From Bdellovibrio sp. ZAP7 (lineage in GTDB: Bacteria > Bdellovibrionota > Bdellovibrionia > Bdellovibrionales > Bdellovibrionaceae): DNA of 64,000 nucleotides. Within the stretch, counting starts at the first letter, position 1. The number at the start of each line of letters is the position of its first letter. The stretch is from contig NZ_CP030082.1 of assembly GCF_006874645.1 (NCBI RefSeq), forward strand, positions 1,860,001 to 1,924,000, given 5' to 3'. A program made the translations under genes and the position numbers. Under the pieces are notes generated by a model. The model worked only from the letters and a program-made list of their open reading frames with translations, was not told the DNA's origin and ran no database searches. This document shows, one piece after another, positions 30,875 to 48,993 of this stretch.

Positions 30875-30930
30875 GCCGACATTTAAGCATGCTAAGTTCG
30901 GGCAAGCCAAGTCAGAACGGGTAATGAAGT

Positions 30931-32156: not shown

Positions 32157-33221
32157 ATGATTTTTGTTACGGGCGGCGCGGGCTTCATTGGTTCGAATTT
32201 TATTCTAAACTGGATCAAGAAACATAACGAACCTGTCGTTAATATTGATAAATTAACTTATGCGGGGAACTTGGAAAACCTTAAAGAGGTTCAAGACAAT
32301 CCCAACTACATTTTCGCCAAAGTCGATCTTTTGGATCTGAATGCTTTGGAAAAATTAGTGAAAGAACACAAGCCTCGCGCGATTTTAAATTTCGCGGCAG
32401 AAAGCCACGTGGACCGTTCGATTCATGGTCCTGGTGAATTCATTCAGACAAATATCGTTGGCACATTCAATCTTCTGCAAGTGGCAAAGGAATACTGGTC
32501 ACAACTTCAAGGCAGCGACAAAGAGAAATTCCGTTTCTTGCATGTTTCAACTGATGAAGTTTACGGAAGCCTTGAGTTGAAGGATCCTGCCTTCAGCGAA
32601 ACGACTCCTTATGCTCCGAACAGTCCGTATTCTGCTTCTAAAGCCGCGAGTGATCACTTGGTGCGTGCGTATCATCATACGTACGGTCTTCCGACGGTGA
32701 CGACAAACTGCTCGAATAACTATGGGCCATATCAATTCCCAGAAAAGCTGATCCCTCTCGTAATTCACAATGCTTTGAATGGTAAAAACTTACCGATCTA
32801 TGGTGATGGCTCAAACATCCGTGATTGGTTGTATGTGGTTGATCACTGTGAGGCCATCGAACTTGCTTTGGAAAAAGGTCGCTTGGGTGAGACTTACAAT
32901 GTCGGTGGCTGGAACGAAAAAAAGAACATCGAAGTTGTCGACACTATCTGCAAAACGTTGGATCAAGTTCGCCCTCGCAGCGATGGTAAGAGCTATTTGA
33001 CTCAGAAGGTATTCGTTACCGATCGCCCAGGCCATGACAAGCGCTATGCGATCGATGCAACAAAAATTGAAAAAGAATTGGGCTGGAAACCGAAAGAGAA
33101 TTTCGAAACAGGTCTTGATAAAACTATTCGCTGGTATTTAAGCAACGAGACTTGGGTTTCTAATATTGTTTCAGGTAGCTACCGTGAGTGGTTGGATAAA
33201 AACTATGGAGGACGTCAATAA
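32157..33221 (+). CDS. rfbB: dTDP-glucose 4,6-dehydratase
   Basis: The 354-residue SDR has T-G-G-A-G-F-I-G-S (5-13), the L-T-Y-A-G-N-L motif, S-T-D-E-V-Y-G (131-137) with the catalytic Asp-Glu, and Y158-S-A-S-K162. It converts dTDP-glucose to dTDP-4-keto-6-deoxyglucose. The downstream rfbA start overlaps its stop by one base. rfbC and rfbD are not in the window. Confidence 0.95.
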
Positions 33222-34093
33222 TGAAGGGAATCATCTTAGCTGGCGGCTCTGGGACGCGTCTTTATCCTGCAACGACTGTGGTCAGTAAACAGCTTCTGCC
33301 GATTTACGATAAGCCAATGGTTTATTATCCACTAACGACTCTGATGATGGCAGGGATTCGCGATATCCTGGTTATTTCTACTCCTCAAGACACGCCTCGT
33401 TTTGAACAGCTGTTGGGGGATGGTTCGCAGTGGGGAATTAAGATTTCTTATGCGGTTCAGCCGTCTCCGGATGGTCTGGCACAGGCATTTATCATCGGTG
33501 AGAAATTTATTGATGGTGATGAGTGTGCGTTGGTTTTGGGAGATAATATTTATTACGGTCACGGCTTCATGCAGCTACTTAAAGAAACTGCGAAGCAAAA
33601 ATCTGGTGCGACTGTGTTTGCGATTAAAGTTCCAGATCCTGAAAGATACGGCGTCGTTGAATTTGATAAATCTTTCAACGCTGTTTCTCTCGAAGAAAAG
33701 CCAGCAAATCCTAAATCCCATTATGCAGTGACTGGTCTGTATTTTTACGACAAGCATGTCGTTGAATATGCAAAATCACTTAAGCCGTCACCGAGGGGTG
33801 AACTTGAGATCACTGATCTCAATCGAATTTATTTAGAAAAAGGCAATCTGGACGTTCAAGTAATGGGTCGCGGTTTTGCGTGGCTTGATACAGGAACGCA
33901 TGAAAGTCTCCTTGAAGCGAGTATGTTCATTCAGACGATTGAAAAGCGTCAAGGGGTGAAGATTGCTGCTCCTGAAGAAGTGGCTGCGCGCATGAAATAT
34001 ATTAACAAGGAACAGTTGTTGAAGCTTGCTGAGCCTCTTAAGAAGAATGCTTACGGCCAGTATCTGATTCAGCTTAGCCAAGAACTTGAATAA
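33221..34093 (+). CDS. rfbA: Glucose-1-phosphate thymidylyltransferase
   Basis: The 290-residue protein has the nucleotidyltransferase signature [11 protein letters not shown] (6-16), [18 protein letters not shown] and E-E-K-P, and matches RfbA length. It makes dTDP-glucose. Its start and stop overlap the neighbours by one base each (TAATG), so rfbB, rfbA and the next membrane gene are translationally coupled. Confidence 0.95.
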
Positions 34094-35643
34094 TGGACAA
34101 ATTGGATTCTATATCCTCCATATTAACGAACTTTGTTCTGGTGTTAATTATTGGAGGTTGGGCTCAACGCTACCAGCCGGTTCGTTTCATTTTTAAGAAA
34201 CTTTTGGTTGTCGTGTTGTTTGCTTGCCTGGGCTGGCATTTGTTAACTGCTTTAGCCTACCTTTGTGTGCCTCAATTCTTCGATCACGTAGAGTTAAATA
34301 TTGCAGCGGTAGCTAGTATCTGGAAGCTAGGGAATCCAATTTATACGCTACCGGATGCAGCCTCCAGATATTCTTTGTTATATGGATCATGGCCTTATTT
34401 AGTGAATGCAGCTTTTCAGTCCTTAAGTGGCTCCGTTTACCTTTTAAGTAAGCTTCCGGGGGTTTTGAATTTCTTTATTTTATTTTCTGGATTTTATCTG
34501 ACCATCAGAAAATTGAACCTGTTAGATCGCTTGCTCAGTATGGGTGTGTTGAGCAGTGTCCTCTTGGTGTTTTACCATTTCAGTTATTGGAATCGACCTG
34601 ACTCATTTCTGATGACGTATGCTTTCCTGGCGCTGATGCTTGTTGTCTATAATGAAAAGATCGGAGACCTGGCGACGTATTTGGGAGTGGGGCTTCTTTG
34701 TGGACTGGCTGCGAACTGTAAGATTCATGGAGTCGTCTATTTTATTCCCCCAGTGGTTTATTACTTTGAAAAATCGGGGAGAAAGATCAATTGGTCCTAC
34801 CTGATTTTTGGTGCTTTGCTTGCATTTGCAGGACTGCTGTTGCCGTTCTTTCTTAAAAATGTCGGTGAAGAGAACTACCTTGTTTGGCTTAAGCTTGCCT
34901 CCAAGCATGGTCTGGATGCCCTGGATTTTGTTAAGACCACAACATTTATTTTTTGCTTCCTACTCTTCCTGTTCCTGTTGAAGTTTCACAAACGGTATCG
35001 TTGGACGTATTTATCATTGTGCATCACCGGATTTATGGTGGCGATTGTTGCTAGTAAGCCTGGGGCGGGTACTCATCACTTTATGCCCTTCGTTCCGGCT
35101 ATAATATTTTTTGCGATCCAATCTTATTTTGGTGTTTCAATGGAGGATCGTCGTTCGATGAACTATGTCCTTGCGGCCTTTGTAATATCAATGGTGTTTG
35201 AAGCACATCACAGGCAGAGACGCGTTGTTAAAGAGTTTGAGCAGACCCGAAATGCAATCGCGCAGCTGAAAGACTTTGAAAACATATTAAAGGAAACGTC
35301 TGGTCTGATAGAAATGGGATATTCCAATAGCGAGTCCTATGGTGCAACTTTCTTTAGGCTGACGGCCATTGCAGATCAGCGTTCGGGGTTGTTAATAGAG
35401 GGATCTGCTTTGATGGATATGAATGCCAGTGGACTGAGTATTCCGCCATCCACTGTGGAGACAATTAAAAGTTGTCAGATTCCTACATTCGTTTTTCCGG
35501 CGGAGGGTGCTCCATGGAATATCATGAGTTACTACGGCGAAAAACCTCTGTATTCCCAGGAATTCAAAGATGTCTTCGCTGAAAAGTATGAAAAGGTCCG
35601 CCAGACCGAATATTACGCAGTTTACACCTGCGTAAAGAATTAG
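34093..35643 (+). CDS. GT-C-type membrane glycosyltransferase, paralogue 1
   Basis: The 516-residue protein has about ten to eleven helices followed by a ~130-residue soluble C-terminal part. The first periplasmic loop carries F-F-D-H-V-E-L-N-I and later R-Y-S-L-L-Y-G-S-W-P-Y, an acidic loop like that used for catalysis in GT39/GT83-type polyprenyl-phosphate-sugar transferases. C-K-I-H-G-V-V-Y-F is shared with the paralogue at 36530-38077, which is similar along the full length. Donor and acceptor unknown. Confidence 0.65.
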   Translation: MDKLDSISSILTNFVLVLIIGGWAQRYQPVRFIFKKLLVVVLFACLGWHLLTALAYLCVPQFFDHVELNIAAVASIWKLGNPIYTLPDAASRYSLLYGSWPYLVNAAFQSLSGSVYLLSKLPGVLNFFILFSGFYLTIRKLNLLDRLLSMGVLSSVLLVFYHFSYWNRPDSFLMTYAFLALMLVVYNEKIGDLATYLGVGLLCGLAANCKIHGVVYFIPPVVYYFEKSGRKINWSYLIFGALLAFAGLLLPFFLKNVGEENYLVWLKLASKHGLDALDFVKTTTFIFCFLLFLFLLKFHKRYRWTYLSLCITGFMVAIVASKPGAGTHHFMPFVPAIIFFAIQSYFGVSMEDRRSMNYVLAAFVISMVFEAHHRQRRVVKEFEQTRNAIAQLKDFENILKETSGLIEMGYSNSESYGATFFRLTAIADQRSGLLIEGSALMDMNASGLSIPPSTVETIKSCQIPTFVFPAEGAPWNIMSYYGEKPLYSQEFKDVFAEKYEKVRQTEYYAVYTCVKN

Positions 35644-35699: not shown

Positions 35700-36527
35700 A
35701 TGATTTACGACTGTTTTGCATTTTTTAATGAGCTGGATTTACTTGAGATTCGTTTAAACACACTAAACGACGTTGTAGATCGTTTTGTTTTGGTCGAAGC
35801 GACTAGAACTTTTCAAAAGAAAGAAAAACCGCTTTTTTTTGAATTGAATAAGGAACGCTTTAAGCCTTTTTTGCATAAAATCGAGCACGTCGTAGTCGAT
35901 GAATATCCAACTTTCTTTTCTAAATGGCGTATTCCAAAAACCTGGGACTATGATGATCATCAAAAGGAAGGCATTCTTCACGGATTAAAAAAATGTCATC
36001 CGAACGATGTGATCATTGTCTCCGATGTGGATGAAATTCCTCGTCCAGAATTAGTCCGTGAATACGCGAGCAAGCCGGGAATTAAAGTTTTCCAGCAAAA
36101 GCTTTACTATTACTATCTAAATTGTTTCATCAAAACCTATCCAGAGCCAATTCCGTTGGTTGATGGTTATATGCCCTGGTATGGCACCGTGATGTTGAAC
36201 TATAAAGACATCAAAACGATCAAAAAGACGCGTCTTCATCGTGAAACACGTCAAAACACTGATCTGGTCACAATTGTACCAAACGGTGGTTGGCATTTCA
36301 GTTATCTCGGTGGCGCTAAGAAAGTGATCGAAAAGATTGAGGCCTATGCTCATAAAGAGCATAATCGCGATGAATTTAAAGATCCGAAAAAGGTAGAGGA
36401 TATCATCCGCAAGGGTGGCAGTCTTTACGGGGATAAACTAGATTCCCAGTTTGTTAAAGTGGATGAATCATTCCCAAAATACGTTCAGCAGCACAAAGCT
36501 GAACTGCACGAACTGATACTTGAGTAA
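35700..36527 (+). CDS. Family 17 glycosyltransferase (MGAT3-like)
   Basis: The 275-residue protein begins I-Y-D-C-F-A-F-F-N-E-L-D-L-L-E-I-R, the characteristic start of GT17, with L-V-E-A-T-R-T-F (31-38), D-Y-D-D-H-Q (83-88) and a metal-binding V-S-D-V-D-E-I-P-R-P (107-116). Eukaryotic members add bisecting GlcNAc; bacterial members occur in LPS/capsule loci and are mostly untested. It lies between two paralogous membrane transferases, 56 nt after the first and 2 nt before the second. Confidence 0.85.
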   Translation: MIYDCFAFFNELDLLEIRLNTLNDVVDRFVLVEATRTFQKKEKPLFFELNKERFKPFLHKIEHVVVDEYPTFFSKWRIPKTWDYDDHQKEGILHGLKKCHPNDVIIVSDVDEIPRPELVREYASKPGIKVFQQKLYYYYLNCFIKTYPEPIPLVDGYMPWYGTVMLNYKDIKTIKKTRLHRETRQNTDLVTIVPNGGWHFSYLGGAKKVIEKIEAYAHKEHNRDEFKDPKKVEDIIRKGGSLYGDKLDSQFVKVDESFPKYVQQHKAELHELILE

Positions 36528-36529
36528 AT

Positions 36530-38077
36530 ATGCCAGTCTCATCCTTGCTCGTTAATTTTTTATCATTGATGTTGTTGGGGTTCTATCTCCAACGATTTTC
36601 ATTTCTGCGAGCTGGTGTTGCTTTCATATTGAAAGCACTTTTGTTTTCGTCATTGGCCTGGTTGGTATTTACCGGCGCAGGTTATTTATTTACGCCGCTT
36701 TATTTTGATCATGCCGAAGTTAACATTGTGTCCGTCGCAAGTTATTGGCTTCAAGGGCATCCTATTTACACAGCCCTTCAAGATCCCTCGAGATACTCAT
36801 TGTTATACGGGCCTTGGCCTTACCTGGTGAATGCGTTCTTTCAAAGTAGCGGGTTGTCAGTTCTGGTGATGGGAAAGATCCCAGGGGTTCTAAATCTTTC
36901 TATTTTGCTGGCCGCTTTTTACTTAAGTATAAAGCAAATCGGGCTATCGCGTTCTAAGCTTTTGTTGGCACTGGGAACTCTGAGTGTTGTTTTGCTCGGC
37001 TATTATAATTTCAGTTACTGGAATCGACCGGATTCTTATTTAACAGCCTATGCTTTCCTGGCTCTTTTTGTCGTTCTCATGAGTGATAAGCTCGGAGTCT
37101 ATGCGACCTATGGACTTCTAGGATTGCTTTGTGGTTTATCTGCAAACTGCAAGCTGCATGGAGTTTTGTACTTCGTGCCGGCGGTGGTGTTCTATTTGGA
37201 AATGAATCGCACCAAAGTAAAGCTGCTTCCGTTGCTGTGTGCATCGGTTCTGGCAGTCTTTGGATTGCTGATGCCCTTCCTGCTTAATAATGTCGGTGCC
37301 GAGAATTATTTCGCCTGGATCGAAATGGCTTCCAAGCATGGTCTCGTGATGAAGGATTTCGTAAAAAATCTGACCTTCATCGGCAGCTTTTTAATCTTCA
37401 TTTATTTATTGGGGTTTCAGCGAAAGTACAGATGGACTTTCATTGCGTTAGTGATTGTAAGTGTCGTGGTTGCGTTGGCGGCCAGTAAGCCGGGGGCTGG
37501 GCCTCATCACTTTATGCCATTGCTACCACTTGTGCTTTATTTTGCCGTAGACGCGTATTTCAGTATGGGCTCTCAGGAGCGCAGCCGATTGAATTTTGTC
37601 GTTGCAGCCTTTTTGTTAACTGTTTCCTTAAATGGAGTGAATCGACAAAAGCGTGTGGCAGCGTTGTTTCAGCAAACCATCGTGCGTAAAGAAGAACTTT
37701 TGGATTTCTCAGAGGTCTTAAATAGTACGGAAGGGAAGCTCGAAGTCGGATATTCAGAAGTAAAAAACTATGAATCGAGTTTTTTAAAAGTAGTTTCAGT
37801 AGCTAAGGAGCGTGGCCTTTTGTTGGATGGAGCCGCTCTGATGGATATGAAGGCTTCAGGTTTAGCTATTCCCCAAGAGACAATTGAATCAATTAAAAAC
37901 TGTTCCATTCCCAATTTCGTGTTTCCAAAAGATGGTGAACCATGGGGAATGACCAGTTTCTATGGACATAAACCCCTGTTTGATGAAGAATTCAAAGAAG
38001 CTTTTCATCGTGCATACCTTAAAGAGCGTGAGTCCAAGTTTTATTCTCTTTATAAGTGCAGAGAGGGGTTGCGATGA
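36530..38077 (+). CDS. GT-C-type membrane glycosyltransferase, paralogue 2
   Basis: The 515-residue protein parallels the 34093-35643 product along its whole length: Y-F-D-H-A-E-V-N-I, R-Y-S-L-L-Y-G-P-W-P-Y, F-S-Y-W-N-R-P-D-S, C-K-L-H-G-V-L-Y-F, S-K-P-G-A-G and C-terminal A-L-M-D-M-K-A-S-G-L-A-I-P are all shared. The pair must come from a duplication with divergence, perhaps to different acceptors. Its stop overlaps the next start (ATGA). Confidence 0.65.
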   Translation: MPVSSLLVNFLSLMLLGFYLQRFSFLRAGVAFILKALLFSSLAWLVFTGAGYLFTPLYFDHAEVNIVSVASYWLQGHPIYTALQDPSRYSLLYGPWPYLVNAFFQSSGLSVLVMGKIPGVLNLSILLAAFYLSIKQIGLSRSKLLLALGTLSVVLLGYYNFSYWNRPDSYLTAYAFLALFVVLMSDKLGVYATYGLLGLLCGLSANCKLHGVLYFVPAVVFYLEMNRTKVKLLPLLCASVLAVFGLLMPFLLNNVGAENYFAWIEMASKHGLVMKDFVKNLTFIGSFLIFIYLLGFQRKYRWTFIALVIVSVVVALAASKPGAGPHHFMPLLPLVLYFAVDAYFSMGSQERSRLNFVVAAFLLTVSLNGVNRQKRVAALFQQTIVRKEELLDFSEVLNSTEGKLEVGYSEVKNYESSFLKVVSVAKERGLLLDGAALMDMKASGLAIPQETIESIKNCSIPNFVFPKDGEPWGMTSFYGHKPLFDEEFKEAFHRAYLKERESKFYSLYKCREGLR

Positions 38078-39231
38078 TAAATCGTAAGAAGACAATAGGA
38101 GAATTTATTTTCCTATTTGTTATCATCGCAGCGTTCATCCAGAGTGTTATTAAGTTAATGCGTAGAGCTTCTACAGGATGGGATCATGAGATCTACTGTA
38201 AGGCTTCTGAAGTATGGAGCAGCGGCTTAGATCCATATATTGCAGAAAATCTGGGGATGAAGCTTTCTTATTCATATCCGGCGTTATTTCTGACTTTTTA
38301 CCAGTACCTATGTTCAATTAAGTTTATCTTCATCTATATCGACATACTTCTCATTGGTGTTATCGTGTGGCTTCTGGTGCGTAAGCTTTCAAGTAGTTTG
38401 ATTGTTGCGCTTCCTGTTGTGCTTCTGGGCTATAACTCGACATATTCCAATATCGAAACGGGGAATCTAGGTGTCGTTGAAGCTTTTCTGCTAACTCTTG
38501 CACTCGTATTTACGGTTCAGAAAAAAAATTGGTCTTCGATCTTTTTGGTTCCAATGGCATTTTTGAAAATCGTTCCTTCGATGCTGGCTTTGCCAATCTG
38601 GTTTTCGAGCCCAAAATGGAAAGACAGAGCGATTCAGTTTATAGTGTTTGTAGGCGGAATGATTTCTCTTATTGTTGCGAATATTATTTTCTCAAAAGAG
38701 CTGGCCTTATCATTTTTTAGACAGCTTACGGGTGGGTATTTAAATCAACATAGCCCCGCTAATGAAATGACGGCAAACGCATCGAACCCGACAGTTCTTT
38801 TGTTCTTCAAAAACCTGGCAATGATGTTTACAGAGCAATATTGGTTTGCGATTTTTGTAATTTTGGTTGCAGGGCTGGCTGCTCTTACATATTGGGTTTG
38901 GAAAAACACAATTCGTAACGAAGCAAGTGCCCTCTATAGGCTCTGCTGGAGTTACCTTCTGATTTTAATGTGGATTCCACGTTTGAAGCCGTATGCGCTT
39001 ATTCTTTTATGTGTTGCCATGGTGCCATTGCTTTCGCGTGTTCCAAGACGATTCGCATTTTGGATCTTCTTTGTTACCGTGTTCCATCGTGTATTAAATG
39101 GAACTAAGAACAATGAATGGTGGGAATTGATTTCGAACAACACAGCAATCTATACGATGATTGCCGTGTTGATCCTGCTGACTCTCCAATGGAGAAAGCA
39201 AAGACAAACGTCTAAAGACGTAGACGTTTAA
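38074..39231 (+). CDS. GT87-like (DUF2029) polyprenyl-phosphate-sugar transferase
   Basis: The 385-residue product starts at ATG 38074, which overlaps the previous stop and is preceded by GAGAGGGG; an ATG at 38056 lies inside the previous gene. It has about nine to ten helices, G-W-D-H-E-I-Y (acidic first loop), D-P-Y-I-A-E-N, S-Y-P-A-L-F-L and N-I-E-T-G-N-L-G, resembling GT87 alpha-mannosyl-/arabinosyl-type enzymes that use lipid-linked donors. It is last in the rfbBA operon and converges with the polyprenyl-arabinose genes, overlapping their end by 20 nt. Confidence 0.7.
   Translation: MINRKKTIGEFIFLFVIIAAFIQSVIKLMRRASTGWDHEIYCKASEVWSSGLDPYIAENLGMKLSYSYPALFLTFYQYLCSIKFIFIYIDILLIGVIVWLLVRKLSSSLIVALPVVLLGYNSTYSNIETGNLGVVEAFLLTLALVFTVQKKNWSSIFLVPMAFLKIVPSMLALPIWFSSPKWKDRAIQFIVFVGGMISLIVANIIFSKELALSFFRQLTGGYLNQHSPANEMTANASNPTVLLFFKNLAMMFTEQYWFAIFVILVAGLAALTYWVWKNTIRNEASALYRLCWSYLLILMWIPRLKPYALILLCVAMVPLLSRVPRRFAFWIFFVTVFHRVLNGTKNNEWWELISNNTAIYTMIAVLILLTLQWRKQRQTSKDVDV
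39206..39229. terminator. Palindromic hairpin in the overlapping 3' ends
   Basis: AAACGTCTA (39206-39214) pairs perfectly with TAGACGTTT (39221-39229), loop AAGACG. On the plus strand AAAAATATTTT follows; on the minus strand only broken T-runs follow. It codes for the C-termini of both converging proteins and likely acts in both directions, perhaps weakly. Confidence 0.45.
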
Positions 39232-39949
39232 AAATATTTTCAGGAATAGAACAAATAATCCACATGATGTATCGCCAGAAGAACGGCAGATAAACAGTGT
39301 TTTTCTGATCTTCGATGGCCCTGGCGATACCCGCACCCACTTGTGGAGCCTTTCCAAATAACGGCGATTTCTTGTGATCTTTCGTCATGGGTGTGTCTAC
39401 AGGTCCCAGTTTTAAATTTACAATATGGACGCCAGTTCCGAAGAGTCTGTTGCGCATACCATCCAGGAAACAAGTCATACCGGCTTTGGCAGATCCATAG
39501 ACATAATTAGATTGTTTGCCACGGTCTCCCGCCACGGATGAAATCACAGCGATCGTACCATTTTTTTGCGCGACCATTTTCGGAGCTATATAAGTCAGCA
39601 GGGAAGCATGGCTTACGAAGTTACTGTTTAGCAGGTGAAGCATTTCGGCTTGATCGACTTCGGCTTTTCTTGGATCTCCCAAAACCCCGTGAGCTACCAG
39701 TACGACATCGACGGACCCATGATTTGTCCAAATGTCGTTAACAAGCTTTTGATGAGATGAAAGATCATTCAGGTCATGGCTGATGACTGAAACTTTTCCG
39801 GCACCACGGACACGAAGATCACTGGCAATCGCTTCCAGCATTTGGGAGTTTCTGCCCCACAAAATAAGTTCATTTTTTGCTGTGGCATATACTTTAGAAG
39901 TCTCTTGAGCAATTGCTGAAGTGGCTCCAATAATCAGGATTTTTTTCAT
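39212..39949 (-). CDS. dprE2: DprE2-like polyprenylphosphoryl-2-ketoribose reductase (SDR)
   Basis: The 245-residue product starts at ATG 39949, whose ATGA overlaps the dprE1 stop; a TTG at 39964 is less likely. It has I-G-A-T-S-A-I-A-Q-E (nucleotide loop), N-x-x-S/V-S-S-V-A-G-D-R-G and Y-G-S-A-K (Tyr/Lys pair), and a C-terminal helical segment F-F-W-R-Y-I-M-W-I-I. In mycobacteria DprE2 reduces decaprenylphosphoryl-2-keto-ribose to decaprenylphosphoryl-arabinose, using the product of DprE1. The neighbour gene makes this assignment strong. Confidence 0.85.
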   Translation of the reverse strand: MKKILIIGATSAIAQETSKVYATAKNELILWGRNSQMLEAIASDLRVRGAGKVSVISHDLNDLSSHQKLVNDIWTNHGSVDVVLVAHGVLGDPRKAEVDQAEMLHLLNSNFVSHASLLTYIAPKMVAQKNGTIAVISSVAGDRGKQSNYVYGSAKAGMTCFLDGMRNRLFGTGVHIVNLKLGPVDTPMTKDHKKSPLFGKAPQVGAGIARAIEDQKNTVYLPFFWRYIMWIICSIPENIFKRLRL

Positions 39950-41253
39950 CGGACTCGTCTCCAAAAACTAGAAGAAAACTGAGGATCAATAAATTGTTCA
40001 AAGGATTTACGCTGGGGATAGAAGGCGGAAAAACTTTCTTTCGACATTCTGGCGTCTTTTGCCGGATAGACGGCGCCACCGGCGGAGCGCACGATTGCGT
40101 CGCACTCTTCCAGGACCTGATAAAGGTCTTCGCCGTAGTTTGCAAAATCTAATGCAAGTGTCACGCCCTCTTTAGGAAATGACATCATTCCCTCTGAAGG
40201 TACGTTTCCAAAGGTTTTCAGCACCGCCAGGAAAGATCCCATTTGGCTCTTGTTCAACAGTTGGATGATCTTTTGTACTGCGGCACCGGAGTCGTTCTTA
40301 TATGGAACGACGAATTGATATTGTAAGAAGCCTCTTTTGCCATAGATGCGGTTCCAGTTGTGAATTGCATCCAAAGGGTAAAAGAAGGGTTCATAGTGAA
40401 CAAGGTTTTTCTTTCGTGGAGTAATATTCTTTCTGAAATACAACTCGTTGAAGGCGCGAATCGAAAACTTGTTGAGTGTTATCTCGGGGAAATACACTGG
40501 GATATTTTTGAGGCTCGTTAGTTTGTGAACTTTGTAGTTTTCTGTGGCTTGTGGTTTTGCAAAGTTGCCACGAATAAAAATACCACGAATATCTTTTTCG
40601 CTGCTGACACAATCTACCCAGGCAACTGTATATTCATAGCCAGTTTCAGATTCGGCAGCGATTTCGAAAAATTCGCTGAGGGAGTGGAATTGAATTTGCT
40701 CTTGATCGATCCACGATGAATCGATTTTTGTAAGATTAAACTCAACCCAGGTGATGAATCCTGTCAGCCCAAGACCACCGATGGTCGCATAGAAAAGATC
40801 GCTGTTTTCATTTCGAGAACAAATCAGTCTTTCTCCAGACGATCGAAGAATTTCAAAGCGGCTAACGTGATGGCCAAAATTTCCCGCGATATGATGGTTT
40901 TTTCCATGGATATCATTGGCAATGGCGCCGCCGACCGTTATAAATTTTGTACCCGGAGTAACGGGTAGGAACCACCCTCGCGGGACTGCAAGTTGAAGTA
41001 TTTCGTCAAAAGAAACTCCCGCTTCGCAACACAGAACTCCCGTTTCCTGATTAAAATCGATATAGCGATTTAATCCGGTCGAGGAAAGAAGTACGCCATG
41101 GTCATTAAGGCAAGAGTCACCATAGGATCGTCCCAATCCGCGAGGCAATAATGAAGCACTGACCTTTGGCAATAACGAGAACCGGTTCGAAAAGGGATAA
41201 AGGGTCTGATCTGTCGCCAGGGGATATTGTCCCCAGCTCTGATTATCTCTCAT
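39946..41253 (-). CDS. dprE1: DprE1-like FAD-dependent polyprenylphosphoryl-ribose oxidase
   Basis: The 435-residue product starts at ATG 41253 (ATGA overlap with the upstream stop). The FAD domain has P-R-G-L-G-R-S-Y-G-D-S, V-T-P-G-T-K-F-I-T-V-G-G-A-I-A-N-D-I-H-G and K-N-H-H, the DprE1 signature. The C-terminal part has Y-G-K-R-G-F-L-Q-Y-Q-F-V-V-P. It oxidises the 2'-OH of polyprenylphosphoryl-ribose, the first step of epimerisation to D-arabinose. Length (~435) is close to that of mycobacterial DprE1 (~460). Confidence 0.88.
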   Translation of the reverse strand: MRDNQSWGQYPLATDQTLYPFSNRFSLLPKVSASLLPRGLGRSYGDSCLNDHGVLLSSTGLNRYIDFNQETGVLCCEAGVSFDEILQLAVPRGWFLPVTPGTKFITVGGAIANDIHGKNHHIAGNFGHHVSRFEILRSSGERLICSRNENSDLFYATIGGLGLTGFITWVEFNLTKIDSSWIDQEQIQFHSLSEFFEIAAESETGYEYTVAWVDCVSSEKDIRGIFIRGNFAKPQATENYKVHKLTSLKNIPVYFPEITLNKFSIRAFNELYFRKNITPRKKNLVHYEPFFYPLDAIHNWNRIYGKRGFLQYQFVVPYKNDSGAAVQKIIQLLNKSQMGSFLAVLKTFGNVPSEGMMSFPKEGVTLALDFANYGEDLYQVLEECDAIVRSAGGAVYPAKDARMSKESFSAFYPQRKSFEQFIDPQFSSSFWRRVR

Positions 41254-42662
41254 GTCGAAATCCAACCGATCAAACCTAGAATAGCAAAGCAGACCCAGCT
41301 GATTTTGTCTTTAACCGCAAATACAACGGGATCATCATGCATTTCATCTCTATTGGTAAGAATCCAAATTCGCGAGATCCAAAATAGCAATATCGGCGTC
41401 GCAAACCACAAATGTTGTGGATTTGTGTAAAGGGCACGAACATCTTTACTTTGAAGGTAAAGAAGAATGATGAGAATCGCAATCAGTCCCGAGCCGGCCC
41501 CCAATGACTGAATCATGGGATAGTCAACTTGGCGATAGCCTCGTCCATCTATCGTCAGCTTGTTTTTACTTCTGATGATTTCTGTACATCTCTTAACGCA
41601 AGCCAGACTGAAAAAGAATAACGTCGCAAAACTCAATAACCATTCTGAAACTGGAATAGATGTGGCGCCTGATCCCGCAAAGATTCTCAAAGTATACATC
41701 ATGGAAAGAATGATGATGTCCACGACAACACTTTGCTTAAGGTAAAGTGAATAGGCCAAATTCAACATCAGGTAACCTGATATCCACGCCAGATATTCAT
41801 TTGGCAATGGAAGTGCGAAAAGAAACGACCCCAGGAGAAGTGTCGGTAAAAGCAGTATTCCCCATTTGATTGATAGATTGCCCGAAGCGAAGGGTCTATT
41901 CTTTTTGGTGTGATGGTTGCGATCAGAGCGTAGGTCCAAGATGTCGTTGAATATGTAAACGAAGGATGCGGATAGGCTAAAACCTGCAAACGCACAAAGG
42001 CAATTGATGACAATGTCTATATTCCAAATTTTGTGACCTGCGAGTGCAGGGAGGAACACCAAAGCATTCTTGATCCACTGGTGTGGTCGCATTTGCTTGA
42101 TAATTAGTTTAAAAATACTTTTTTTATCGTCGACGATGTACTGCGTAGGTTTTTCCAGCCGTCTAATTTTTGCACGTAAATTGTTCGTCGGATTAACCGC
42201 AATAACTTCATCTGCATCAGTCCAAATTTTTAAATCTGCATCATGGTCCCCAACATATGCGAATTTTTGACTTCCAATCATTTCTTTTATAGCAGCGAGC
42301 TTATTTTGACCTTTATAGTTTTTCTCCATAGTCGAACCGATTGAGCGATTAAATATACCCAAGTGATTGGCTACTTCTTGGACCCATAGATCAGGGCTTG
42401 CAGATGCCAAAATGACTTCTCGACCTTCCGCTTTAGCATTGCGCAAAAGATCTAAGACAGAGATGCGATAAGGCAAAAGTTTGGCAACAACGGGAGCATG
42501 TTTTGCAAGTTGTGCTTTGAAATATGCTTTGCCTTTAAGTAGCCACAAAATACTTTTCAAAAACTGTAAAGGGTTACTCTTAAGTAGCACAAGCCATTGC
42601 TCATAAAGTAAATCAGTTTTTATGAGGCAATCATCTAAATCACAAACAAGCGTATGTTTCAT
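41250..42662 (-). CDS. HAD phosphatase-UbiA fusion: polyprenyl-phosphate phosphoribosyltransferase
   Basis: The 470-residue fusion has an N-terminal HAD domain (D8-L-D10-D-C-L-I-K-T, S-A-S-P-D, Y-V-G-D-H-D-A-D) and from ~185 a UbiA-type prenyltransferase with M-R-P-H-Q-W-I-K-N (191-199), N-D-I-L-D-L-R-S-D (239-247) and N-R-P (255-257). The UbiA part resembles DPPR synthase (Rv3806c), which attaches phosphoribose from PRPP to decaprenyl phosphate. The HAD part can remove the 5-phosphate, so steps 1 and 2 of the arabinose donor pathway may be fused. About eight helices follow. No ribosome site is evident before ATG 42662. Confidence 0.85.
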   Translation of the reverse strand: MKHTLVCDLDDCLIKTDLLYEQWLVLLKSNPLQFLKSILWLLKGKAYFKAQLAKHAPVVAKLLPYRISVLDLLRNAKAEGREVILASASPDLWVQEVANHLGIFNRSIGSTMEKNYKGQNKLAAIKEMIGSQKFAYVGDHDADLKIWTDADEVIAVNPTNNLRAKIRRLEKPTQYIVDDKKSIFKLIIKQMRPHQWIKNALVFLPALAGHKIWNIDIVINCLCAFAGFSLSASFVYIFNDILDLRSDRNHHTKKNRPFASGNLSIKWGILLLPTLLLGSFLFALPLPNEYLAWISGYLMLNLAYSLYLKQSVVVDIIILSMMYTLRIFAGSGATSIPVSEWLLSFATLFFFSLACVKRCTEIIRSKNKLTIDGRGYRQVDYPMIQSLGAGSGLIAILIILLYLQSKDVRALYTNPQHLWFATPILLFWISRIWILTNRDEMHDDPVVFAVKDKISWVCFAILGLIGWIST

Positions 42663-42671
42663 AGGAGGTGG

Positions 42672-42791
42672 ATGTTAGCGACTCCACTCGGGGAGAGCAA
42701 GTGGGCGCGTTGTGTCAACCTGATTCGCAAAATATTTGCCACAGTGTGGAATGGTTGGAATAATTCGACCCTTGCGAGGGCAGGTCAGTGA
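42672..42791 (+). CDS. Possible small upstream ORF, 39 codons, coupled to the O-antigen ligase gene
   Basis: ATG 42672 follows AGGAGGTG (42663-42670), the best ribosome site in the vicinity, and the frame stays open for 39 codons. It stops at TGA 42789-42791, overlapping the GTG start of the next gene (GTGA). The peptide is cationic with two Trp (S-K-W-A-R-C, W-N-G-W-N-N). I know no family for it. It could be a leader peptide that couples translation, or chance: the spacing of 1-3 nt from AGGAGG to ATG is short. Confidence 0.4.
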   Translation: MLATPLGESKWARCVNLIRKIFATVWNGWNNSTLARAGQ

Positions 42792-44026
42792 CTGAAATAG
42801 TGCAGAATGAAGAGAGAAAAATTTGGAGTATCTTAGCGATACTTTTAACTCTAGCAACTGCAGTTAGTCGAAATCTCGTAGATCTTCTTTTCGTTTTGTC
42901 GGCGCTTATTATCATTTACCATGATTTTAAAAGTTGTAAATTGCGTGGTCTAAAACAAATTTTTTCTAATTTAAAGTACGCCTCGATCCTGATTGGAGTG
43001 TGGACCGTTGCAAATATCGCAGGCTACTTTTGCTCCTCTGGAGTTGGCCCTTTGCAGCTGAAAGAAATATTGAGTCTGCGATGGGTACTTAGTTTTTATG
43101 TCTGCATATATCTGGGAATGCACATGGCTTTCCGCGAGAGTGTTTTTCGCAAAATTGCGGTAGCATACTGCCTTATTCTACTTGTGAGTACTTATCTTCA
43201 GTATTTTGTCTTCGCTCAATTTGGACGATTTCAAGGTTTATTTGAAAATCCCAATATCGCCGCATTTTGTATAGCGATGCCTTTGGTTTTCTTGTTTGTA
43301 TGGGAATCGGTGAGTTATCAGGAAACTAAAAAGATTGATTGGACTCTTAGTGTTTGCAGTCTGTTTTTAGCGATCCTGATTTTCTTTACGTTGGGTAGGG
43401 GAATTTGGATTAGCGTAATCTTTAGTTTTTTCGTTATTTCGCTGCTTTTAAAGATAAAAAGAAATCTTCTTGTCGCGATAATTGCCTCCTGTTTCATAGG
43501 TGGTTTATTTGCGGGTAACGTCTTTGGGCTAAAAGACCGTGTTATGTATTCGTTCGACACGACCGAGAACTCTTCTCAAGGCATTCGATTTCTTTTGTGG
43601 CGTAGTAATTGGGAAATCCTTAAAGATTATCCTTTGTTTGGCGTGGGATATTTAGAAAACTACCGTTTGGAAATTCCCTATTTCAAAAAAATTGGTATTT
43701 CGAGCTATGTGGATGAAACAAATCAATACAGCAGTCATGCTCACAACGACCTGTTGCAGGTTGCGGTGGGGGGAGGGGTTGTTGCTGTTATTTCGTTCTG
43801 CTTGCTATTTGGTGGTGCGATTAAGCTCAGTTATGGTGTATTTCGTAGGTCCAGAAGTCAGGAAATACGGATGTTTGCGTTGGGCGGCCTTGCGATTTTG
43901 ATCGTATTTCTCGGAATGGGGATATTTGATAGTCCTTTCGTCATTCCGTTTTCAAGGAATTCCTTTTTGATCTTTTTTGGGCTTTGTCTTGGACGAATGC
44001 AAAGAATGTCCAAAGGTTCTATTTAA
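42788..44026 (+). CDS. O-antigen ligase/polymerase family (WaaL/Wzy)
   Basis: The 412-residue protein starts at GTG 42788 (GAGGG upstream), with about twelve helices. The long periplasmic loop contains S-S-Q-G-I-R-F-L-L-W, Y-P-L-F-G-V-G and S-H-A-H-N-D-L-L-Q; the conserved His/Asn region is typical of Wzy_C/O-antigen ligase. R-G-I-W-I-S also fits. It either joins O-antigen to lipid A-core or polymerises units. It is divergent from the polyprenyl-arabinose operon. Confidence 0.85.
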   Translation: MTEIVQNEERKIWSILAILLTLATAVSRNLVDLLFVLSALIIIYHDFKSCKLRGLKQIFSNLKYASILIGVWTVANIAGYFCSSGVGPLQLKEILSLRWVLSFYVCIYLGMHMAFRESVFRKIAVAYCLILLVSTYLQYFVFAQFGRFQGLFENPNIAAFCIAMPLVFLFVWESVSYQETKKIDWTLSVCSLFLAILIFFTLGRGIWISVIFSFFVISLLLKIKRNLLVAIIASCFIGGLFAGNVFGLKDRVMYSFDTTENSSQGIRFLLWRSNWEILKDYPLFGVGYLENYRLEIPYFKKIGISSYVDETNQYSSHAHNDLLQVAVGGGVVAVISFCLLFGGAIKLSYGVFRRSRSQEIRMFALGGLAILIVFLGMGIFDSPFVIPFSRNSFLIFFGLCLGRMQRMSKGSI

Positions 44027-44048
44027 AAATAGCTTGGGCGAAATGTTG

Positions 44049-44774
44049 TTATCTCAAAAGGGTAAGCCACTTTTCGATGGACTTCTTGCAATTTATTTCT
44101 AGGATTTCACTGATTTTTCTCAGTGTCTCTTCTTGGAGGCCGATATAAGAGATCATTTTTTCTTCATTCTCTAAAAGAGGTAACACAGATTGCCGAAAGT
44201 AGTTTGGTTCTGTAATGGCGCCGGCGAGCACTACAGTTGTTGTGGCAGAGTTGAGTATTCTATTCTGTAAGTTATTTTGGGCGCAGATATCATATGCAAA
44301 TTTTGTTTTTCCATCCTCTTGCGTCGCAAGTATGGAGTCTTCGTTGATTGATATAATCAGCTCATTCGCCGCGTCACTCGCATCGAGATCATAGTAACGT
44401 GGCGCCGTTTTTTGGTCAAAATGCTTAAATAAGATACATTTATCAGGCATTGACAGTTTTGAAACGCTGTATACATATTTCCCAAGGCACTTGAGTACCT
44501 GTAGTAACCGTCTTTTTCTTCCTGCTGAATAACGATGGTAATCCAGGTTAACCAATTCAAAAAAAGAATTTATTTTGAAACCATCATTTAAAATTGTGTC
44601 TTTTGAAGTCGGATTGAATTCGCCGAGTGGTCGGAACTCACAGCGACCTTCTGGCCAACGTTCATTACCATAAAAGCAAGCTCGAATGCCGGCAGAGTTT
44701 AGGCTATTCACTAGATGGATTTTGGCAAGTGTCGAGATACTTGGCCCCGTATAAGCGGAAATTAATTTAACCAT
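44049..44774 (-). CDS. Hypothetical protein, possible GT-B-like fragment
   Basis: The 241-residue product is not recognised. Its start L-I-S-A-Y-T-G-P-S-I-S-T-L-A-K-I-H-L-V-N followed by G-I-R-A-C-F-Y-G-N-E-R-W recalls the N-terminal domain of some GT-B enzymes, but the donor domain motifs are missing. It converges with the ligase gene and lies alone on the minus strand between plus-strand glycan genes. The base composition is AT-rich like its surroundings. Confidence 0.6.
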   Translation of the reverse strand: MVKLISAYTGPSISTLAKIHLVNSLNSAGIRACFYGNERWPEGRCEFRPLGEFNPTSKDTILNDGFKINSFFELVNLDYHRYSAGRKRRLLQVLKCLGKYVYSVSKLSMPDKCILFKHFDQKTAPRYYDLDASDAANELIISINEDSILATQEDGKTKFAYDICAQNNLQNRILNSATTTVVLAGAITEPNYFRQSVLPLLENEEKMISYIGLQEETLRKISEILEINCKKSIEKWLTLLR

Positions 44775-44861
44775 GATGCTGTACTCTAATGTATTATGCT
44801 TGTTTTAACTAGAAAATTTGTGTGAGATAGTTGGCTATCTTGAATTTATGACGAGAGCCCG

Positions 44862-45644
44862 ATGAAGAGTTTTGAGAACGATTTTTATAGAATATTGGAT
44901 CTTTTGAAAAAAAGAATTCCATTTGCGTTTAATCGTTTTTCTGATGGCGAGCTTTTCATTTTTCAGAATAAAGAACTGATCTTGGGTGATAATCTTATTA
45001 AAATTGGTAGCGAGAGTCGAGGTGGTCCTTATAAGAAGGAAGATCACAAGCACTTCGACCCAAACCAGCACTCTTTCTATCGTGATAGACTAATGGATGC
45101 ATTTATATTTCGTAAAGACAATTACTTCAAAGGCATCAGTTGTCGTTGTTGTGTTGGAAGAGAAAATCTAAATTGGCAATTGAAACATCTGCAAGAGTCT
45201 GCTGATGATCAATTTCTTACTTGGGCCAACCTTCTCGTTAATGGAAACTATCCGAAATTCATGGCAGAGATGCTTCCGCTTTTTGCGTCCTATCCAACAG
45301 TTTTCATCTGTAATGAGAAAGCTGAGTTAAAGAATTTGCCGTACGTAGTGAAGGACTTCAGGGTCGGATATAATGCGATGATCAATGATTATCATAAAAT
45401 TGAAGAGATCGCATCTTGGATTGGGCAAAACAATATTACGGGGCATCTGTTTCTATTTTCGGCGTCTTCATACAGTAAAATGGCGATTCACCAACTTTAC
45501 GATAAATTCCCTCTAAATACTTATATTGATGTTGGCACAACGATGAATGCATTTATGAATATGAGCATTGAGCGAGTGTATTTGGGCGATTACTGGTTTG
45601 AGAAACCAAGTCCATCCGACATCTATAAAATCTGTGTATGGTAG
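44862..45644 (+). CDS. GT-D-fold-like putative glycosyltransferase
   Basis: The 260-residue protein has R25-F-S-D-G-E30 near the N-terminus and D-V-G-T-T-M-N-A-F near the C-terminus, a pattern like the GT-D family (R-F-G-D-G-E-x... and D-x-G). GT-D enzymes add glucose to Ser-rich adhesin glycans in streptococci and occur in LPS/capsule loci. Function here unproven. CGAGAG before the ATG. The next gene overlaps its end. Confidence 0.6.
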   Translation: MKSFENDFYRILDLLKKRIPFAFNRFSDGELFIFQNKELILGDNLIKIGSESRGGPYKKEDHKHFDPNQHSFYRDRLMDAFIFRKDNYFKGISCRCCVGRENLNWQLKHLQESADDQFLTWANLLVNGNYPKFMAEMLPLFASYPTVFICNEKAELKNLPYVVKDFRVGYNAMINDYHKIEEIASWIGQNNITGHLFLFSASSYSKMAIHQLYDKFPLNTYIDVGTTMNAFMNMSIERVYLGDYWFEKPSPSDIYKICVW

Positions 45645-46348
45645 TTATGTTATTAGATCATATAAAGGTAACTAAGCTTGAATGGGATAGCCACTTTTTT
45701 GAAAAAGGTGTTTATATAGTTGAGACGTCAGACTTTTCAGCCTTGAAAGAGTATCTATCTAAATCTAACGAGCCGGCGCTTTACTATCTTTTCTCCAACA
45801 TAAAAATAAATGAATTGTCTGATCGCCTTATGGATCATAAAATGACGTACGCTATTGATGTTAAGGGCATAGTCAATTTTCCTACTCCAAACTCCTGTGT
45901 TTTTTATGATGGAAAGAATGCGCGTACTGCAGAACTTGAGCATTTGGCCGTTCTATCCAGCAGAAATTCGCGTTTTCGCACGGATGATTTGATTCCAAAG
46001 AATAAAGTAGATGAGTTATTTAAAATGTGGATTGGTAATGCTTTAAAGCCAAATCCTGCGACAAAAATACTTCTCAAACATATAGATGGAAAAGTGGCTG
46101 GCATGGTCTCATTTCGGCCAACTCCAGATCTACTAAAAATCGAGTTGGTTGCAGTACGCGAAGATTTTCAGCGAAGAGGATGTGCTGCCGAAATGTTGAA
46201 GGCTTGTATTGGGTACGCTCAAGATCACAGCATTAAACGAATTGAAGTGGTAACTCAGGAAGTTAATAAAGGTGCTTGTGAGCTTTATGTAAGAGCCGGA
46301 TTTAAACTTGTAGATAGTAAGTATATATATCATGTGCATACAACTTAG
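45638..46348 (+). CDS. WecD-like GNAT N-acetyltransferase
   Basis: The 236-residue protein starts at ATG 45638 or ATG 45647; either is near the upstream stop. The start L-E-W-D-S-H-F-F-E-K is the signature of WecD/dTDP-4-amino-4,6-dideoxysugar acetyltransferase relatives. The acetyl-CoA loop Q-R-R-G-C-A-A-E follows L-V-A-V-R-E-D-F. If dTDP-4-keto-6-deoxyglucose from RfbBA is aminated, this would be a natural acylating enzyme, but no aminotransferase is in the window. Confidence 0.7.
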   Translation: MVVMLLDHIKVTKLEWDSHFFEKGVYIVETSDFSALKEYLSKSNEPALYYLFSNIKINELSDRLMDHKMTYAIDVKGIVNFPTPNSCVFYDGKNARTAELEHLAVLSSRNSRFRTDDLIPKNKVDELFKMWIGNALKPNPATKILLKHIDGKVAGMVSFRPTPDLLKIELVAVREDFQRRGCAAEMLKACIGYAQDHSIKRIEVVTQEVNKGACELYVRAGFKLVDSKYIYHVHTT

Positions 46349-46354
46349 GAATTC

Positions 46355-47554
46355 ATGAAAATTGCCATTGTCTCTTTGGATAATTCAGATCGTATTCTCG
46401 CTGGAGGCAAGCACGTCCATCAGCAGTTGCTGAAGAAGGCTTTTCAGAAGCAAGGGCATTCAGTTTTGATGATTTTTCCCAAAAGAACATTGATTTTTTT
46501 GTTTGGAAGAGGCCTTATTGCTGTGCTATCGAAGTTGCGCATCTTAGATCGATCTTTTAGTTATGCTTGGACTCTTGAATGTTATTGCAAAAGCATAAGT
46601 CAGCAATTGAGAACAGTATCACAGGATTTAAATGTTGTATTTGCACAGGATCCTGTTTCCTCCGTAGCTGCAGGACGTGTCTTAACAAATTCGGTTCCGA
46701 TAGTGATGACATTGCATGGTTACCTAGCTCGTGAGTCCGTCAACTACGGAAATTATTCATCAGATGAACAGAAAAAGGTGACTAAAGAGGCCCTTTGGTA
46801 TGAACGGGAGTCATTGAAATTTGCTAAAAGAGTGATCACCGTTGACAGCAAAATTGAATCTTACTTATCAGAGTTTTTTGATTCCCATAAGTCAGTCACA
46901 GTCCTTAAAAATGCGGTGAACCCTGAATTGTTCCGATTACTCGATTCAAACTCGTCTAAGATTCTAAAAAGCGAACTTGGCTTACCAGGAAATAAAGATA
47001 TTGTATTGGTGCCGCGTCGGCTGGTTCGTAAAAATGGTGTCGATATCGCAATAAGGGCCTGTGCCGAGTTAAAAAAGACAAATACTTCTTATTATTTTGT
47101 AGTCATTGGTGGCGGCCCTGAACATTCCAACTTAGCCGATCTTATTCGACAGCTGGGTTTGTCATCCGACGACATTGTTCTGAAAGGAGACACGAATCAC
47201 GATCTTGCTATTAAATATTACGAAGTAGCAGACGTGGTCTTAGTTCCTTCGGTTATTCGAGATGGTGTTGAAGAGGCTACTTCTTTAAGTATGTTGGAAG
47301 GTATGGCTGCCCGAAAAGTCGTCGTCGTATCTGCGATTGGTGGAATGAAAGAAGTCATCGTTAATAGAATTAATGGTTTTTCCTTTGAACAAGGGAATGT
47401 AGGTGAGCTCACTGAACTATTGAGTGGTTTGAAAAAACTAACTAACGAAGAGAGGTCCAAAATAGTTGATAGGGCCTATCACGATGTGTGTGAACGCCAT
47501 CATTACGAAAGACATGCTGAGAATTACCTTCTGGAATTTGAGAAGTCCAAATGA
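46355..47554 (+). CDS. Family 4 glycosyltransferase
   Basis: The 399-residue GT-B protein starts at ATG 46355 with AGGA before it. The donor domain begins V-L-V-P-R-R-L-V-R-K-N-G, followed by G-G-G-P-E and the region P-S-V-I-R-D-G-V-E-E-A-T-S-L, in which the E-x7-E motif can be read. N-domain L-A-G-G-K-H-V-H-Q is typical. It is part of a plus-strand run (GT-D-like, GNAT, GT4, Wzx), coupled to wzx by ATGA. Confidence 0.85.
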   Translation: MKIAIVSLDNSDRILAGGKHVHQQLLKKAFQKQGHSVLMIFPKRTLIFLFGRGLIAVLSKLRILDRSFSYAWTLECYCKSISQQLRTVSQDLNVVFAQDPVSSVAAGRVLTNSVPIVMTLHGYLARESVNYGNYSSDEQKKVTKEALWYERESLKFAKRVITVDSKIESYLSEFFDSHKSVTVLKNAVNPELFRLLDSNSSKILKSELGLPGNKDIVLVPRRLVRKNGVDIAIRACAELKKTNTSYYFVVIGGGPEHSNLADLIRQLGLSSDDIVLKGDTNHDLAIKYYEVADVVLVPSVIRDGVEEATSLSMLEGMAARKVVVVSAIGGMKEVIVNRINGFSFEQGNVGELTELLSGLKKLTNEERSKIVDRAYHDVCERHHYERHAENYLLEFEKSK

Positions 47555-48993
47555 GCAAAAAGAATATCAGAATTAATGTCATTGCTCGAAGTGTTGTAAC
47601 AATTGTTGAATTGTTATTTTCACTTTTCTCATTTCCCTATGTCGCACGTATCTTGGCACCCGAAAGTATTGGGCATATTGATTTCGTCAATGCGGCAGTG
47701 GCCTACTTTATAACTATCGGTTCATTTGGTATAGCAGAATATGCAGGTCGGGAGATTGCTCAACACAGAGACGACCTTAACGTTGTAAGTTCCGTGCTGT
47801 CGAAATTTCTGGGATTACGGCTGAAGCTAGCCTTTGTTTTAATTATTGTTTACCTTGTTCTGGTTGTGCCATTTTATGGGCACAGCACTCCGTTGTTTTA
47901 TTGGTCGACAATTCTTATTCTGACGTCCGCATTCAATTTGGTCTGGGCATTAGAGGCCTTGGAAGATTTCTCTTACCTAGCAACGGCGCGTATTTTATCT
48001 AAAGTTGGACTTTTGGTTTATCTTCTTACAATGGTAAGAACGAAAGAAGACGTCGTTACCTATTTTCTGGGAATGATACTGTTCGATTTCATTTATTATA
48101 TTTTAGCCGTTTTTAGATTGAAGGCTACCTATCATGTGAAGTTTGGCTTAAAAGTCCTACGTGAAAAAATTGATACTAGTGAGTTTAAGAATCTAATCCG
48201 AATATTCATGATGGTGCTTATTCAGGGTTCAATTGCGGGAGTACCTTCTCTGGTAATGGGCCATCTGCATTTGTTCCATGATCTCGGACTACTATCGACA
48301 GCTATGAGGTTCTTTTGGATGGGTTATTATTGTATTACACCGCTCTCGACGGTTTTACTTTCCAGAAGCATGAGCTTTAAGTCCCACGTTCATAAGAATG
48401 AAAGATTTGATCATCTAGATGGAGCTGCATTGTCATTATTGACTCTTGGTGTGCCCGTGACATTTGGTTTGATTGCGACCGCTGCCGATGTAATTCCGCT
48501 ATTAGTCGGTGGAGAATATACAGGATCGATTCTTCTTTTGATGATGTTGTCGCCTTTGATTTTGCTTTTTGTATTAAATAATTTCTGGAGTATGCAGGTC
48601 GTTTTTTCTCACAGAGGTGATCGTGCCTTGATTATTTCAAATTCCTGCGGATTGGCGACAGTGATACTTTCATCAGTGATATTGATCCCCTGGTTAAGTG
48701 CCGCAGGTGCAGCAATATCATATTTTTTAACCTACGCAGTTATGTGTGCTATTCCGTATTTCTATGGCCGAGAATATTACAGAATGTCAGGGGTCTTATT
48801 GGATATCGGAAAAACCTTAATTGCCGGAATCGTAATGTGTGCCGCAATTTACTTCGTTCAGGCGACGTCGTTTGCTAAATTAGGTGGCAAGATTGCGATG
48901 GGGGTTGCAATATATCTCTTGGTTCTATTTATCTTCCGCCATCGCATGGTCGTCTCTTTTTTAGACAATTTTAAGAGTGCTAAAGTTCAATAA
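47551..48993 (+). CDS. wzx: Wzx-type O-antigen flippase
   Basis: The 480-residue protein has about twelve to fourteen helices and the polysaccharide-export MOP-family start, with L-F-S-F-P-Y-V-A-R-I-L-A-P near 25-37, F-G-I-A-E-Y and E-Y at the second conserved loop. It would flip undecaprenyl-diphosphate-linked O-units to the periplasm. It overlaps the converging GT4 gene by 14 nt. Confidence 0.85.
   Translation: MSKKNIRINVIARSVVTIVELLFSLFSFPYVARILAPESIGHIDFVNAAVAYFITIGSFGIAEYAGREIAQHRDDLNVVSSVLSKFLGLRLKLAFVLIIVYLVLVVPFYGHSTPLFYWSTILILTSAFNLVWALEALEDFSYLATARILSKVGLLVYLLTMVRTKEDVVTYFLGMILFDFIYYILAVFRLKATYHVKFGLKVLREKIDTSEFKNLIRIFMMVLIQGSIAGVPSLVMGHLHLFHDLGLLSTAMRFFWMGYYCITPLSTVLLSRSMSFKSHVHKNERFDHLDGAALSLLTLGVPVTFGLIATAADVIPLLVGGEYTGSILLLMMLSPLILLFVLNNFWSMQVVFSHRGDRALIISNSCGLATVILSSVILIPWLSAAGAAISYFLTYAVMCAIPYFYGREYYRMSGVLLDIGKTLIAGIVMCAAIYFVQATSFAKLGGKIAMGVAIYLLVLFIFRHRMVVSFLDNFKSAKVQ

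Follow-up and report, generated by a model that had tools for sequence, protein, structure and literature searches.

In Citrobacter youngae, the UbiA part of a HAD-UbiA protein makes polyprenyl-phosphoryl-ribose-5-phosphate, the HAD part dephosphorylates it, and a membrane glycosyltransferase (GT) of the GT-C type uses the product on the O antigen; the Citrobacter fusion protein made farnesyl-phosphoryl-ribofuranose in vitro (Kelly et al. PNAS 2024, PMC11127046). Glycans containing arabinofuranose (Araf) have DprE1 and DprE2 homologues in their loci (PMC11127046), and D-Araf is known from the pilins of Pseudomonas paraeruginosa (PMC12369383, PMC10115798) and from a cell-wall polysaccharide of Devosia (PMC8707391), while a D-arabinose precursor was proposed for noeC, noeH and noeO of Azorhizobium caulinodans by similarity to Mycobacterium tuberculosis proteins (PMC2443382). 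A 64,000-nucleotide stretch of the Bdellovibrio sp. ZAP7 genome (NZ_CP030082.1; hereafter the window, to whose positions all coordinates refer unless prefixed L or G) was analysed, in which three intact minus-strand open reading frames, running from 42662 to 39212, encode a HAD-UbiA fusion together with an oxidase resembling DprE1 and a reductase resembling DprE2 (the trio). Mycobacteria and Gram-negative relatives have provided a well-described version of the pathway, and homology points to the same biochemistry in the window. In all likelihood the trio makes the donor of a pathway that adds pentofuranose to a surface polysaccharide of a Wzx/Wzy-type locus; its product, judged from sequence, would very probably be polyprenyl-phosphoryl-D-arabinofuranose, a building block for the surface sugar coat. 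The features of the trio are the following:

41250..42662, minus strand: predicted HAD phosphatase (amino acids 1-180) and UbiA-fold polyprenyl-phosphate 5-phosphoribosyltransferase (amino acids 183-470), 470 amino acids (PRK08238, 8j8j, model)
39946..41253, minus strand: DprE1-like FAD oxidase of the VAO type (putative polyprenyl-phosphoryl-ribose 2'-oxidase), 435 amino acids, ATG start at 41253
39212..39949, minus strand: DprE2-like reductase of the short-chain dehydrogenase/reductase (SDR) type, 245 amino acids, ATG start at 39949
41250..41253, minus strand: ATGA stop/start overlap from HAD-UbiA to DprE1, from the sequence
39946..39949, minus strand: ATGA stop/start overlap from DprE1 to DprE2, from the sequence

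The HAD-UbiA gene ends in an ATGA whose ATG is the start of the DprE1-like gene, and a second ATGA contains both the end of the latter and the start of the DprE2-like gene, which at its own end shares 20 bases with a GT87 gene running towards it (38056-39231). The starts given by the open-reading-frame tool, 41265 for the DprE1-like and 39964 for the DprE2-like gene, are TTG codons upstream of these ATG starts. The preliminary description of this DNA had reported three minus-strand genes with ATGA at both junctions, and their position and both overlaps were read in the sequence. What is shown directly for the trio is which genes it comprises, how they are ordered and overlap, the conservation of their active sites, their predicted folds and their context.

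The whole 470-residue fusion protein scored 585 bits against the NCBIfam HAD-UbiA model PRK08238 (cut-off 351), and PF01040 places it in the UbiA superfamily. Its UbiA half matched the NCBIfam models of decaprenyl-phosphate phosphoribosyltransferase with an E value of 7e-42, compared with 2e-7 for ubiA_proteo (4-hydroxybenzoate octaprenyltransferase), and the only solved structures retrieved by phmmer at E<=0.1 were those of M. tuberculosis Rv3806c (8j8j, E 6.4e-27; 8j8k). A model built with AlphaFold2 from 11 relatives as input (pLDDT, the predicted local distance difference test, 89) aligned with 8j8j over 282 residues (Z 28.6, root-mean-square deviation 2.9), the next UbiA enzymes reaching Z 21.0. 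The site for 5-phosphoribosyl pyrophosphate (PRPP) and Mg in Rv3806c is formed by Arg22, Lys28, Tyr70, Asn73, Asp77, Lys87, Arg90, Gln135, Tyr138, Lys143 and Tyr157 (PMC10994848). In the alignment, ten of these eleven residues were identical in the window protein; the equivalents of Arg22, Lys28, Tyr70, Asn73, Asp77, Lys87, Arg90, Tyr138 and Lys143 were invariant in 48/48 aligned sequences, and that of Tyr157, also identical in the window protein, was kept in 46/48. Sequence and predicted fold thus identify the UbiA half as a polyprenyl-phosphate phosphoribosyltransferase, with a predicted transfer activity. In the HAD half, Asp8, Asp10, Ser87, Lys121, Asp139 and Asp143 were all present, with Asp8/Asp10, Lys121 and Asp143 invariant among the 48 aligned relatives, and the modelled fold resembled the HAD phosphatases 3fvv (Z 17.6) and SerB (Z about 14-15).

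The DprE1-like protein scored 366 bits (E 3e-109) against the NCBIfam DprE1 model and matched solved DprE1 at E 9e-76, the next family (cytokinin dehydrogenase) giving E 2e-9; its His116, Lys346 and Lys399, which correspond to His132, Lys367 and Lys418 of DprE1, were invariant in 77 aligned sequences. The DprE2-like protein scored 191 bits (E 4e-56) against the NCBIfam DprE2 model and 281 bits against the SDR model PRK07102, above the cut-off of the latter; it matched solved DprE2 (21gq_C) at E 3e-30, the next SDR giving E 4e-12, and its Ser-Tyr-Lys-Asn residues were invariant in 72 aligned sequences. On these comparisons both proteins are much closer to genuine DprE1 and DprE2 than to the rest of their superfamilies. 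Residue 367 of the 435 in the DprE1-like protein is Ala where the mycobacterial enzyme has Cys387, as in 70/77 aligned sequences. Cys387 is the target of covalent DprE1 inhibitors, which therefore should not act via that bond on the bacterial enzymes with Ala; M. avium, which also has Ala there, is resistant (PMC11124399). DprE1-type enzymes are common outside mycobacteria, and mostly carry Ala where these compounds need Cys387.

From these homologies we infer the activities of the pathway, together with its lipid, its sugar and the flippase, glycosyltransferase and acceptor that it would involve. The UbiA half would transfer ribose-5-phosphate from PRPP to polyprenyl phosphate, the fused HAD domain would take off the 5'-phosphate, the DprE1-like flavoenzyme would oxidize C2', and the DprE2-like SDR would reduce it with inversion, yielding polyprenyl-phosphoryl-beta-D-arabinofuranose. 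The preliminary description had proposed the same sequence of phosphoribosylation, dephosphorylation by the fused HAD domain and two-step 2'-epimerisation, which is strongly supported by homology, catalytic residues and fold. The donor would then be flipped to the periplasm by a flippase, and a GT-C enzyme (of the 36530/34093 family, or the GT87 enzyme at 38056) would use it to decorate the polysaccharide of the surrounding Wzx/Wzy-type locus, from which these features were considered:

32157..34093, plus strand: rmlB-like dehydratase and rmlA-like thymidylyltransferase (nucleotide-sugar genes), family assigned by eye from the translation
34093..35643, plus strand: paralogue of the 36530 GT-C protein, 49% identity by sequence comparison
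36530..38077, plus strand: GT-C membrane glycosyltransferase of an unclassified family, candidate D-arabinofuranosyltransferase (model, conservation, co-occurrence)
38056..39231, plus strand: GT87-family GT-C, convergent with DprE2, alternative pentofuranosyltransferase candidate (PF09594, E 2e-11)
42788..44026, plus strand: O-antigen polymerase/ligase, Wzy_C (PF04932, E 9e-21)
47551..48993, plus strand: Wzx-type flippase, sole PF01943 match in the genome, 4.9 kb from the trio

The neighbours of the trio, in the window as well as in relatives, were glycosyltransferase, Wzy-like, Wzx, nucleoside-diphosphate-sugar and acyltransferase genes, and a Wzy-like gene was also found near the trio in the sister loci of the genus. 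The surroundings are those of surface-polysaccharide genes, in agreement with the O-antigen-type locus named in the preliminary description.

Among 24 genomes of the genus, HAD-UbiA was present in nine, DprE1 in seven, and DprE2 in the same seven plus one contig-edge copy. The latter (G003 contig 433:102-830) lies in a fragmented genome in which DprE1 was not found, and the trio may there have been cut by the assembly. Two genomes, G012 and G015, carried HAD-UbiA without DprE1 or DprE2 (loci L106:9129-10550 and L109:9053-10456) and, by analogy with the published rule, are predicted to add ribofuranose or another pentose. In one relative, the operon is interrupted by a gene for an AAA_14/DUF4143 ATPase (L104:10568-11833), which separates HAD-UbiA from DprE1. 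When positions 36524-46352 were compared with the closest syntenic relative (L103:2663-13463), the flanking blocks showed 84-91% DNA identity, the trio 69% and the GT87 region 67% (66-69% across the two), with unmatched stretches between; such a divergent trio region within conserved flanks fits an exchange of cassettes of the polysaccharide or serotype type.

When a collection holding a single genome for each species was scanned, 513 stretches with a DprE1 relative were obtained. The best 80 of these 513 were examined; they are 49-56% identical and belong to Chloroflexi, Verrucomicrobia, Acidobacteria, Nitrospirae, Proteobacteria, Bdellovibrionales and other groups. Linkage was counted in 67 loci with enough flank, drawn from these 80 and from the loci of relatives: within 6 kb of DprE1, DprE2 was found in 64/67, UbiA in 48/67, and HAD, UbiA and DprE2 together in 39/67. 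DprE1 relatives were also detected on 66 plasmids, mostly rhizobial. The arrangement of DprE1 with DprE2, often with HAD-UbiA, is therefore common, and the emphasis of the preliminary description on rarity did not hold, since such pairs occur in hundreds of bacterial genomes and the part played by HAD-UbiA in adding pentofuranose to O antigens of Gram-negative bacteria has been published (PMC11127046). The UbiA part also has a 29% identical counterpart in an unannotated phage contig from human faeces (MT837543.1:4892-5743); a phage-borne system is mentioned by Kelly et al. (PMC11127046).

Of the candidate transferases, the proteins at 34093 and 36530 reached the threshold of no family in Pfam or NCBIfam, although the model of the latter (pLDDT 84) has a GT-C fold (ALG12 Z 20.1, ArnT 19.8, EmbB 14.0, AftD 13.1, AftA 12.3). 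The GT87-like membrane enzyme of the preliminary description was recovered by PF09594; its GT39-like label found partial support, in that the protein encoded at 29411-30979 passes PF13231/PF02366, while the PF13231 match of 34093 was sub-threshold and 36530 gave none. Asp60 and Glu63 were invariant in six members of the 34093/36530 family, with the spacing of the essential Asp31/Glu34 of Citrobacter ORF12 (PMC11127046), which is a weak hint. The family was present in 5/24 genus genomes, all five among the seven with DprE1, a nesting with a chance of 5e-4 (one-sided exact count, with no correction for common descent or for the choice of the family from these loci), and in three sister genomes a member adjoins DprE2 or sits one gene off. 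GT87 was found in 3/24 genomes, all trio-bearing. Since 2/7 trio genomes had neither family, other transferases must exist; when the remaining membrane proteins encoded near the trio in sister loci were compared by profile with the GT-C and GT87 families, no match emerged. A 513-residue membrane protein beside HAD-UbiA (L105:7397-8938) with an early DDPYIH motif and no Pfam match is a possible further GT-C transferase. Near DprE1 in 80 named loci of other phyla, neither family was matched, the matches being confined to loci of the genus; beyond the genus, therefore, the trio does not keep the same transferase, as expected if this enzyme varies with the acceptor. We tentatively suggest, as a possibility open to considerable doubt, that the 34093/36530 proteins are a new family of D-arabinofuranosyltransferases that, together with the donor trio, forms a serotype-like cassette exchanged within the genus.

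Several observations weigh against the trio being a D-arabinofuranose donor module. The scores of the DprE1-like and DprE2-like proteins lie below the NCBIfam equivalog cut-offs of 500 and 250 bits, respectively, for which reason they are named as such and not as strict equivalogs. Gln135, which contacts the ribose O3 in Rv3806c, is replaced by Asn in the window protein and by Thr in most relatives. A search of the genome revealed no flippase of the GtrA/Rv3789 type (Rv3789 is a member of the GtrA family), and the PF01943 search returned the single Wzx-type transporter at 47551, probably the O-unit flippase, and no further one; no dedicated multidrug and toxic compound extrusion (MATE) protein was recognised beside HAD-UbiA, although MatE (PF01554) itself was not searched for. 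Finally, the GT-C fold of the candidate transferase does not reveal which sugar is transferred.

If the outcome of the oxidase and reductase differed from that of mycobacterial DprE1 and DprE2, the final sugar would be another pentofuranose, either unepimerised ribose or another epimer. The pentose is indeed decided by the epimerase gene, as for xylofuranose with ORF13 (Kelly et al., PMC11127046), and G012 and G015 have HAD-UbiA alone; however, relatives of both DprE1 and DprE2 with intact catalytic residues are present in the window, and the published Araf-containing glycans are those with DprE1/E2 homologues (PMC11127046), so that we regard this outcome as very improbable. A homologous pathway arabinosylates pilin in P. 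aeruginosa PA7/Pa5196 (PMC12369383, PMC10115798), and the donor could be made as proposed while D-Araf goes onto a type IV pilin or a separate glycolipid instead of the O-antigen-like polysaccharide of this locus; this is unlikely, as the genes beside the trio are of the polysaccharide type and none was recognised as a pilin gene. Membership in the UbiA superfamily would also allow a quinone or lipid prenyltransferase flanked by unrelated oxidoreductases, but this is hardly credible, because Rv3806c is a clearly better fit in sequence and fold than any prenyltransferase, four other UbiA proteins are encoded in the same genome, and the linkage to DprE1/E2 is conserved. The preliminary description had regarded a UbiA part nearer to quinone prenyltransferases as evidence against its proposal; the comparison came out the opposite way, with Rv3806c best by NCBIfam, solved structures and fold, and the quinone-prenyltransferase candidate was rejected on both the E values (7e-42 versus 2e-7) and the Z scores (28.6 versus 21.0).

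With the D-arabinofuranose reading of the trio, this genus becomes a further example of the published rule by which D-arabinofuranose in a bacterial glycan is predicted from HAD-UbiA with DprE1/E2. New here, among the 24 genus genomes, are the presence of DprE1 in seven, the two fusion-only genomes, and the unclassified GT-C family confined to DprE1-bearing genomes. Among close relatives, some have the trio, some HAD-UbiA alone and some neither, a natural comparison that makes the ribose-versus-arabinose prediction directly testable.

Compared with the mycobacterial decaprenyl-phosphoryl-arabinose pathway (Rv3806c, Rv3807c, DprE1 Rv3790 and DprE2 Rv3791), the transferase, oxidase and reductase of the window are homologous, whereas its phosphatase is a fused HAD domain unrelated to Rv3807c, the genome has no GtrA/Rv3789-like flippase, and Ala replaces Cys387 in DprE1. 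The pilin D-Araf genes PSPA7_6245-6251 of P. paraeruginosa PA7/Pa5196 also represent a Gram-negative polyprenyl-phosphoryl-Araf pathway, but with a transferase that lacks a fused phosphatase (PMC11127046), a type IV pilin as acceptor and TfpW as glycosyltransferase. The noeCHOP genes of A. caulinodans likewise include proposed D-arabinose precursor genes, although in a symbiosis operon and with the Nod factor as acceptor. The three-component system of C. youngae O1/O2 consists of ORF15 (HAD-PPPRS), ORF14 (MATE), ORF12 (GT136) and ORF13 (epimerase) (PMC11127046), and shares with the window a HAD-UbiA in one protein, an O-antigen locus, one or more epimerase genes alongside and a GT-C enzyme nearby. 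The window has DprE1/DprE2 in place of the single SDR epimerase of O2, and its candidate GT-C enzyme, the counterpart of GT136 in Citrobacter, is assigned to GT-C by fold. The donor synthase component of the system described by Kelly et al. is present as HAD-UbiA plus DprE1/E2.

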